Assembly (NCBI GenBank): GCA_021372395.1 | Contig: JAJFUP010000154.1 | Location: 1-40,320 of the forward strand | DNA length: 40,320 bases | From: Deltaproteobacteria bacterium | GTDB lineage: Bacteria > Desulfobacterota > Desulfomonilia > UBA1062 | Reading direction: 5' to 3' | Shown: positions 23,262-32,146 of the stretch, one piece after another | Numbering within the stretch: position 1 is the first letter of the stretch | Layout of the letters: each line of letters starts with the position of its first letter | Position numbers and translations under genes: made by a program | Notes under the pieces: model-generated | Told to the model about the DNA's origin: nothing | What the model saw: only the letters and a program-made list of their open reading frames with translations | Databases searched by the model: none

Positions 23262-24509
23262 TCACGGGCGGCTCTTTTCGTCCCAGACCTTCAGGAGATA
23301 ATCCTTGTGGTCTTCGAAGAGCTGGGCCTGTTCCTCGACGAGGTCCTCGGCCTGCTGTGAGTTCATGTCCCGGCTCATGTTCACGAAGGAGGCAACCCTG
23401 GCATAGTAGAGGGGCACCATGAGATCGATGAGCTTGTTGCGGTTTTTCTGCCAGACGTGAAAGGTCGCCGCCAGTTCATAGAGGATCCTGACCCATGTGT
23501 CCACCGGGAACAGGAAGGCGTCCTTCTCGATGGTGAATGCCTTCTCGATCTCACTGAAACACTCCTCGGAAAAGACATCCCTCCACAGAGATCCGAACTG
23601 GCTGAACCCGACCCTGAAGTTCTCGAGCAGCGCATCCATGTTCACTCGCACAGGTTCCGGCTCGGTATACCCCTGCATGCCGAAGGTCTCCACCGGGCTG
23701 CTCCCCCTGGTCGCCTTCCAGAAGTCCTCATAGACCTCCATGAGGTGAAAGATGGTCCACACCACCTGCCGGAACATCGGACCCAGGTGGAGCGAGGGGT
23801 CTTTCACGTCGTGGATCTTCACGCCGAGGTTCGACTGACATATCTTGAAGCCGTTCGTGATGGCGGTGGTGGTCATCCAGCTGTCGATGCCGAATCTGGC
23901 TACATCCGTATCCCAGACATCCTGCTCTGCATAGAATTTCGCCACGTCGTACGAGAAGGCAAAGTCGCCGCCGATGGGCTGGCGGATCCTTTTCCCGTAG
24001 AGGACCCTGGTGAGGTTGTACACGATGTTGTTGGTGATGGTGCCGTCATATTTGTGCCTCATGTACACGGGGGCTACGAACTGGAAGCCCTTTTCCATCA
24101 CGGGGTCCAGGAGATAGTAGACCCAGTCCGAGGTGATGCTCCTGAGATCCGAGTCAACCACGGCGCATGCCTTCACCTTCAGTCTGAGCGCGGCTTCGAA
24201 GATCGATCTCAGGGCCGTTCCCTTACCCGCGGGACCGCGATAGATGGAGACGATTTTCTCCTGCCAGGGTTTAATCTGGAAATCCTTTGCCTCTTCCCTG
24301 GTGTCGTCGGTGGAGCCGCCGTCGGCAATCAGGATGACGCTCCTCTTGTCCTTGTACTTGTTGGCCAGGCCGTGCGTCACCATCTGGATCACGTGGGCTA
24401 TGGTCGTCTGATTGTTGTAGGAGGGGATGCCGATGAGGATGTCCGCGCTTTCGATCTCCTCGAGACGCTTCGAGGTATAGGACCTGATACCGGTATCATA
24501 GTGGGACAT
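23262..24509 (-). CDS. Family 2-type glycosyltransferase related to solute-synthesis GTs
   Basis: A 415-residue GT-A enzyme. It begins with a classic family 2 fold (ADILIGIPSYNNQTTI, LIADGGSTDDTRE), then RGPAGKGTALR, the metal site VVDSDLR (D119, D121), and PIGGDFAFSYDVAKF followed by FGIDSWMTTTAI and LGVKIHDVKDPS. The order GKG, DxD, GG(D/E) and a late histidine is the same as in GpgS and mannosylglycerate synthase-like enzymes. The ATG at 24509 is chosen because AAAGGAG lies nine bases upstream; the in-frame ATG at 24569 lacks this. The C-terminal helical region is long, as in its neighbour at 21876. Product unknown; a hexosyl-glycerate-type solute is inference. Confidence 0.72.
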   Translation of the reverse strand: MSHYDTGIRSYTSKRLEEIESADILIGIPSYNNQTTIAHVIQMVTHGLANKYKDKRSVILIADGGSTDDTREEAKDFQIKPWQEKIVSIYRGPAGKGTALRSIFEAALRLKVKACAVVDSDLRSITSDWVYYLLDPVMEKGFQFVAPVYMRHKYDGTITNNIVYNLTRVLYGKRIRQPIGGDFAFSYDVAKFYAEQDVWDTDVARFGIDSWMTTTAITNGFKICQSNLGVKIHDVKDPSLHLGPMFRQVVWTIFHLMEVYEDFWKATRGSSPVETFGMQGYTEPEPVRVNMDALLENFRVGFSQFGSLWRDVFSEECFSEIEKAFTIEKDAFLFPVDTWVRILYELAATFHVWQKNRNKLIDLMVPLYYARVASFVNMSRDMNSQQAEDLVEEQAQLFEDHKDYLLKVWDEKSRP

Positions 24510-24896
24510 CCCGTATGCTCCTTTCTTCCCCAGGGTTTTAGGGTTTGTTCGTTTTCCCTTAAGACTCATATCCTTACATAAAGTCTATAGCACGGGAGCG
24601 AAAAGTCAAGGCTCTCCCGGAAAACTGCCCAGGAGCGGCGCGGTGGAACTCGAGAAGCCCGGCATGAATGATTCTGTCTCAGCGCATGGCAGGGGATAGC
24701 GGACCTGTGCATTTTGGTCATCTCGCCTGATGCCAGGCGAGATGACCAAAATGCACAGGCAACTCGTGAACTTCCTGGTGTTACAACGCCTGCTGAGATC
24801 CCCCGGCCGAAGAAAATATTTCACCGGGTTTTCTATCCTGCTTGCCCGGCTCCGGGGCTGCATGCATGCCGGGAGGAAGGAGTCAGGCCGCTCTTG
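24510..24896. other. Gene-free stretch holding a large palindrome
   Basis: 387 bases between two minus-strand starts and stops with no convincing gene: open frames here are shadows or short. It contains the leader and ribosome binding site of the 24509 glycosyltransferase and the perfect inverted repeat at 24704-24759. The remaining sequence shows no tRNA or clear terminator. Confidence 0.6.
24704..24759. repeat. Perfect 26-bp inverted repeat with a 4-base loop
   Basis: The left arm (24704-24729) begins CCTGTGCATTTTGGTC and the right arm (24734-24759) ends GACCAAAATGCACAGG; all 26 positions pair, and ATGC (24730-24733) is the loop. The match stops abruptly on both sides. It is longer than ordinary terminators and has no T-run. 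The outer TGTGC...GCACA ends are compatible with two insertion-sequence ends left together, a MITE-like or REP-like element, or a regulatory cruciform. No second copy is present in this window and no target duplication was seen. Confidence 0.85.
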
Positions 24897-25295
24897 TCAC
24901 ACCCCGCGATACGCGATGCAGGAGATCTCCACGAGCACGTCCCGGGGAAGCCGCGACACCTCGACAGCATGGCGGGCCGGCTTGGCCTCGCCCGTGAAGA
25001 AGGTCGCATACACCTCGTTCATGGCGGAGAAGTCGTTCATGTCCTTGAGAAACACCTCGGCTCTGACGATGCGTCCGGGCGTGAGGCCTGCCTCGGCGAG
25101 GATTGCTTCGATATTCTTCAGGGCTTGTCTGGTCTGTTCCCTGATCCCGCCGGGAACAATGACCGCTGTGGACGGGTTCATGGGTATCTGGCCCGAGACG
25201 AATACGAAATCGCCTGCCATGATGGCCTGGGAATATGGTCCAATGGCCTTGGGTGCCGTCTCTGCGCAGATGGCAATGATCCTGGATTCGGGCAT
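24897..25295 (-). CDS. ridA: RidA family reactive enamine/imine deaminase
   Basis: A 132-residue protein of the YjgF/YER057c/UK114 family. RidA hydrolyses 2-aminoacrylate and related enamines formed by PLP enzymes, and works as a trimer in the cytoplasm. [16 protein letters not shown] and [13 protein letters not shown] are present, with the substrate-binding arginine R108 and E123 in VEIS at family positions. The ATG at 25295 gives the standard length and has GGAGG upstream; a longer frame to 25421 would add 42 unrelated residues. It diverges from the flavin reductase gene. Confidence 0.93.
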
Positions 25296-32072: not shown

Positions 32073-32146
32073 TGGGATGTCGTCTAATGGCAGGACACGA
32101 GATTTTGGATCTCGTTATGGTGGTTCGAATCCACCCGTCCCAGCCA
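32073..32146 (+). tRNA. tRNA-Gln (anticodon UUG), CCA encoded
   Basis: A full cloverleaf can be drawn. The acceptor stem TGGGATG pairs with CGTCCCA with one G-T. The anticodon stem CGAGA/TCTCG encloses the loop TTTTGGA, with anticodon TTG. The T arm GGTGG/CCACC closes the TTCGAAT loop. Discriminator G is followed by encoded CCA. It reads CAA and, by wobble, CAG. A tRNA-Gln between ispE/spoVG and prs is a recurrent arrangement in deltaproteobacteria. Confidence 0.96.

Follow-up and report, generated by a model that had tools for sequence, protein, structure and literature searches.

The window, meaning the whole 40,320-nt stretch of DNA that was analysed, contains one perfect palindrome at positions 24704-24759, in which two 26-nt arms with 100% complementarity enclose a 4-nt loop (ATGC); it is the sole inverted repeat of such size within the window. 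By an arithmetic estimate, the chance expectation for a perfect 26-bp stem in 40 kb is approximately 1e-11. Folding of the 101-nt strand yields -36.4 kcal/mol, compared to -14.8 +/- 2.3 kcal/mol in shuffled sequences (z = -9.6), and none of 200 shuffles folded as well. The features of the locus, together with the single tRNA gene of the window, are as follows.

23262-24569, minus strand: family-2 glycosyltransferase gene (PF00535), with its 5' end on the other side of the element from ridA
24681-24703, plus strand: head, conserved and 5' of the hairpin; it sets the orientation of the element and reads AGCGCATGGCAGGGGATAGCGGA here, against a consensus of ATGGCATGGCAGGGGAAAnCnTGA
24704-24729, plus strand: left arm, 26 nt, from the inverted-repeat search and aligned in A1 (see below)
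24730-24733, no strand: loop ATGC; among copies the loop varies from 3 to >20 nt and its sequence is not fixed
24734-24759, plus strand: right arm, the perfect complement of the left arm, from the inverted-repeat search
24760-24781, plus strand: weakly conserved tail (in the family, AGGC, 5-7 variable bases, then AAAAactCC)
24897-25295, minus strand: RidA / endoribonuclease L-PSP gene (PF01042), with its 3' end towards the element; the open reading frame remains open to 25421
32073-32143, plus strand: tRNA gene, the only Rfam match within the window

The hairpin lies 138 nt from the ridA stop codon and is flanked by CAACTCGTG and TCCGCTATC, with no T-run beside it on either side. An Rfam covariance-model scan of the window returned no family for the hairpin and matched the tRNA alone. 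An earlier note, made from the sequence, had described a perfect 26-bp palindrome with a 4-nt loop that lacks a T-run and sits between two minus-strand genes, and the arm complementarity, the folding energies far outside those of shuffles, the flanks and the gene calls bear this out. The outer ends given in that note as TGTGC...GCACA need correction, in that the arms start and end as CCTGTGC...GCACAGG.

Copy number and distribution

A DNA search of the genome from which the window derives (G000) matched the palindrome at approximately 25 places. Many of these matches extend about 20 nt beyond the palindrome on one side only, indicating that the repeat is both larger than the palindrome and directional; the recognisable element in the window spans approximately 24681-24781. 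Together, a covariance model of 21 copies (R1) and a wider model (R2) recovered a total of 55 places in the 3.0-Mb genome, of which 34 are outside R1, copies in a model matching it by construction and the E-values of strong matches being rough. The genome-wide search for the arm that the earlier note had proposed thus yields many copies, and the case in which the arm is found only at this locus is excluded. That the palindrome is a one-off terminator or the product of chance, a reading to which its siting between two same-strand genes lends itself, is next to impossible to uphold against approximately 55 family copies and against covariation far above that of shuffles (see below).

In congeneric genomes, R2 identified a total of 27 elements, 15 of them in G004, 6 in G003, and 6 in G002, and none in congener G001 or among 19 further members of the taxonomic family. 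No match to R1 was obtained among 55 genomes from outside the genus, and a sample of 148 genomes from the phylum gave a lone weak out-of-genus match (G132) that proved, when read, to be a GC-rich hairpin without relation to the element; these larger scans ran with stricter filters that weak distant relatives might escape. Within these scans, the element family is restricted to the genus. No element match was found in viral contigs or in phage and plasmid collections. An exact scan of GTDB genomes for CATTTTGGTCATCTCGCC returned 25 scattered single matches in unrelated taxa, which were read as chance or coding occurrences. When the window copy was compared to 40 relatives by BLAST, matches were found in its own genome alone, which reflects a limit of sensitivity since R2 later detected the 27 congeneric copies.

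Architecture and paired changes of the arms

The element is approximately 100 nt in length and consists of a conserved head, GGCAGGGGAAAACCTTGA, followed by a 20-27-bp hairpin and a short tail. When copies are compared within their own genome, the stem starts with CCT and ends with AGG, after which come C and an A-rich tail; in congeneric copies, a second short hairpin, CCAGCGCCGAAGGCGCTGCAG, often forms the tail. Across the 82 elements from the own and congeneric genomes, Watson-Crick pairs occupy about 95% of stem positions, the CC at the foot is the sole invariant part of the stem, and preferences are evident for T3, C7, A8, T10, and a CATCTCGCC stretch. Perfect stems were found in 28 of the 55 own-genome copies.

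Hairpins were aligned with MAFFT in an alignment that was not fitted to structure (A1). A total of 98.1% of cells in A1 are paired, compared to 82% in shuffled alignments, a percentage somewhat favoured by the picking of sequences on hairpin similarity, which does not in the same way explain two-sided changes. The latter affect 17 of 23 pairs (6.1 in shuffles) and 54 cells (9.9 in shuffles), against only 3 one-sided changes that keep the pair and approximately 9 unpaired cells. None of 500 shuffles reached the A1 values for paired cells, two-sided pairs, or two-sided cells, and sliding the partner by 1-3 columns lowers pairing to 33-43%. A tentative and rather improbable reading is that both arms are renewed jointly by a templated process that rewrites whole hairpins, for instance by copying from a fold-back, by quasi-palindrome correction, or by conversion from one copy to another; under such a process, arms would diverge fast yet stay perfectly paired.

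Gene context, shared sites and signs of movement

Longest-ORF gene calling was misled by palindromes and antisense open reading frames, and gene context was instead determined with dicodon-scored calls from a simple, purpose-made, unpublished caller. Of the 82 elements, 3 fall inside a called gene, possibly due to misplaced starts, and the rest are intergenic. Flanking gene pairs are convergent in 31 cases, tandem in 35, and divergent in 5; the excess of convergent over divergent pairs (p = 1.3e-5) places the elements mostly at the 3' ends of genes. Such a bias would be expected if the stem served as an RNA-level device for terminating or insulating transcription or for shielding the 3' ends of mRNAs, with the hairpin under selection and its dispersal secondary. 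A further point in favour of such a device is that, in tandem settings, mismatches on the transcribed strand are more often G-U (24) than A-C (13), a difference that points the way RNA pairing would predict but is not significant (binomial p ~0.1); over all elements, however, G-T and A-C mismatches are approximately equal (33 and 43). Also weighing against it, no T-run directly follows the hairpin on either strand (on the minus strand, the head yields TTTT only 6-7 nt on, and this in some copies), the orientation of elements relative to transcription in tandem pairs shows no clear preference (23 to 12, p = 0.09), and conservation extends to the head and tail, parts that a device made of a stem alone could do without.

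Sites shared between species bear on both function and movement. An element with different arms is also present 3' of the ridA orthologue in G004 (G004:C42), and none was seen behind ridA when the corresponding regions of G002 and G003 were read. With the ridA site occupied in one of the three other congeners read, conservation does not support the local regulatory role of a single copy that had been raised in the earlier note. Other orthologous sites carry elements in two species (G000:C35 and G004:C34; G004:C37 and G002:C135; G003:C86 and G002:C132), and hairpins that keep their position at several such sites although their arms have diverged favour an RNA-level role. Nevertheless, when own loci were compared with congeneric element loci, only two matched and most sites are unshared, which is unfavourable to such a role. 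Safe sites that were used more than once, old copies whose arms have changed, or a selected function may each account for shared sites.

At one site, occupied and empty states can be compared directly. In G000 (contig C92; L130, positions 1475-1722), a 248-nt block that includes an element lies between a conserved terminator-like hairpin, which has its own T-run, and the polA stop codon; of the two convergent genes, named by eye from sequence, one is presumably acyl-CoA-dehydrogenase-like and the other polA-like. The 248-nt block is absent from G003 and G004, where the polA stop comes directly after the terminator-like hairpin. The simplest reading of the alignment is that the block was inserted in G000, and this single locus would also permit a deletion in G003 and G004. 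The ends of the block are blurred by other intergenic sequence, and no target-site duplication could be resolved at this one empty site. That the element here lies downstream of a T-run terminator-like hairpin that congeners possess without it weighs against an RNA-level 3'-end device, which, in sum, we consider unlikely; a terminator or mRNA 3'-end role in addition to mobility is possible.

In G002, the same site (L212, G002:C45, between 1362 and 1501) holds another palindromic sequence, AAATACGGGGACAGTATACATATTTATCCATGG..., and the 10-mer GACAGTATAC of this locus recurs in two Y1_Tnp loci of G002 (L205 and L208). GACAGTATAC may mark a different, transposase-linked repeat.

The long perfect inverted repeat and the 248-nt insertion would also be compatible with the suggestion, made in the earlier note, of two abutted insertion-sequence ends (e.g., IS21-like) whose 4-base centre is a scar, or with a MITE derived from a DDE element. 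Nearly all of the own-genome matches, however, are tight two-arm hairpins; separated arms around a transposase, arm pairs at a transposon-sized distance, and terminal inverted repeats shared with an autonomous DDE element were not seen among them. Moreover, the variable loops do not behave as a scar, the arms diverge strongly among copies whereas transposon ends stay constant, and the phage, plasmid, and viral collections hold no match. Abutted insertion-sequence ends or a DDE-derived MITE are for these reasons very improbable.

A second comparison involves replacement rather than presence or absence. Contigs G004:C47 and G003:C141 share a 3.6-kb segment at 97.5% identity, and in one intergenic gap each has an element with different arms and in opposite orientation, the head and tail sides being swapped; at a distance of 650 nt, another element shows 94% identity. 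As all genomes are draft assemblies, a chimeric contig could mimic the swapped element. Elements, some of them nested or in tandem, also abut or succeed each other in five contigs (C137, C89, C122, C109, and C190), and in C137 and C89 the second element comes after the head and partial left arm of a first. The loci L120 (G000:C190) and L122 (G000:C109) are paralogous, contain 2 or 3 elements as tandem direct repeats of approximately 100 nt that are identical over about 120 nt including flanks, and adjoin a gene that, named by eye, resembles a radical-SAM activating enzyme. Taken together, recent mobility of the hairpin repeat is the best reading of these sequence comparisons; the observations at orthologous sites also fit old, functional hairpins that have been kept in position.

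Other sequences were noted in the vicinity of elements. A further palindrome, GGGGTCGGAGTCGATTTTC...GAAAATCGACTCCGACCCC, lies near elements at L182 and L185 in G004, and a short palindrome, CCCCGCTTTCGCGGGG, occurs within a few hundred bases of elements at five own-genome loci (L105, L118, L120, L129, and L139), with L105 and L129 representing the same locus in two near-identical copies. Additionally, a 2.9-kb segment is 99.8% identical between L180 (G004:C32) and L199 (G003:C56), in genomes treated as different species, and could represent recent transfer or misbinning.

Comparison with known repeats and a candidate mobiliser

REPs are short intergenic palindromes that are present in many copies, are specific to a species or genus, and lie between convergent and co-directional genes (PMC3733652; PMC8266576). 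The element resembles them in its many intergenic copies, its siting between convergent or co-directional genes, and the complementary changes of its stem. Classical REPs are palindromes of 20-50 nt preceded by a GTAG or CGTC tag, and in the families described in PMC3733652 the stem measures 6-13 bp, whereas the stems described here reach approximately 20-27 bp, follow a purine-rich head of about 20 nt and, in congeners, precede a second short hairpin as tail. No GTAG or CGTC tag was found 5' of the stem, where the bases are TTGA-, CGTA-, or CTGA-like. Given its longer stems and the lack of these tags, the element is classified as REP-like rather than as a REP. REPINs are REP doublets that form hairpins with compensatory stem changes (PMC3116915). 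They share with the element a long compensated hairpin, an intergenic location, dispersal as a unit, and an inferred mobilisation in trans by a Y1 transposase. REPINs, however, end in two invariant inverted REPs around a variable spacer, and no REP end was recognised in the element, whose one nearly invariant part is the CC(T)...(A)GG at the foot. Untagged REP-like palindromic families are mentioned for Bordetella, Brucella, cyanobacteria, and others (PMC3733652); when likened by description alone, they are similarly palindromic, dispersed, intergenic, and without a terminal tag. Intrinsic terminators likewise comprise a GC-containing hairpin at gene 3' ends, but the element differs in having no T-run directly after the stem, an unusually long stem, and conserved flanks, and one of its copies lies behind an existing terminator-like hairpin. 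As far as the open-access literature shows, the element looks like a new untagged, long-stem, REP-like family.

The palindrome in the window thus probably belongs to a family of mobile, non-autonomous repeats that is confined to the genus; its members are miniature, intergenic, and non-coding, and they are REP- or REPIN-like but untagged. Of the identities offered in the earlier note, that of a MITE or REP-like element is supported by the approximately 55 own-genome copies and the genus-wide family. As non-autonomous mobile DNA, the family would spread when its folded strand, present as single-stranded DNA or a cruciform, is recognised by a trans-acting enzyme, and the abundance of copies at gene 3' ends would follow from insertion being least harmful at such places. 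By analogy with REPs and REPINs (PMC3116915; PMC8266576; PMC2817692), a Y1/HUH transposase acting in trans on the folded single strand is the leading, albeit unproven, candidate mobiliser. Y1_Tnp genes are present in all four element-bearing genomes and absent from G001, a correlation over five related genomes. However, no element was found within approximately 1.5 kb around each of the 10 Y1_Tnp genes of the genus, some of which are near contig ends, and the candidate is therefore without physical linkage to the element; likewise, none of these 10 loci shows the REP-type arrangement in which two inverted copies flank the RAYT (Y1_Tnp) gene. The lack of a GTAG-like tag also weighs against a Y1 transposase.

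The family would add an untagged, long-stem member to the REP-like repeats, and relatives within the genus can be compared at sites where a copy is present, missing, or replaced. A conspicuous palindrome in a short stretch of DNA may belong to a family that a plain sequence search misses. If templated renewal of the arms were true, such repeats would amount to self-correcting palindromes with a faster turnover than the sequence around them. Since two-sided changes greatly exceed one-sided changes (54 to 3), the family could help in asking what maintains the pairing of arms: selection acting on the DNA, selection acting on the RNA, or a copying mechanism.
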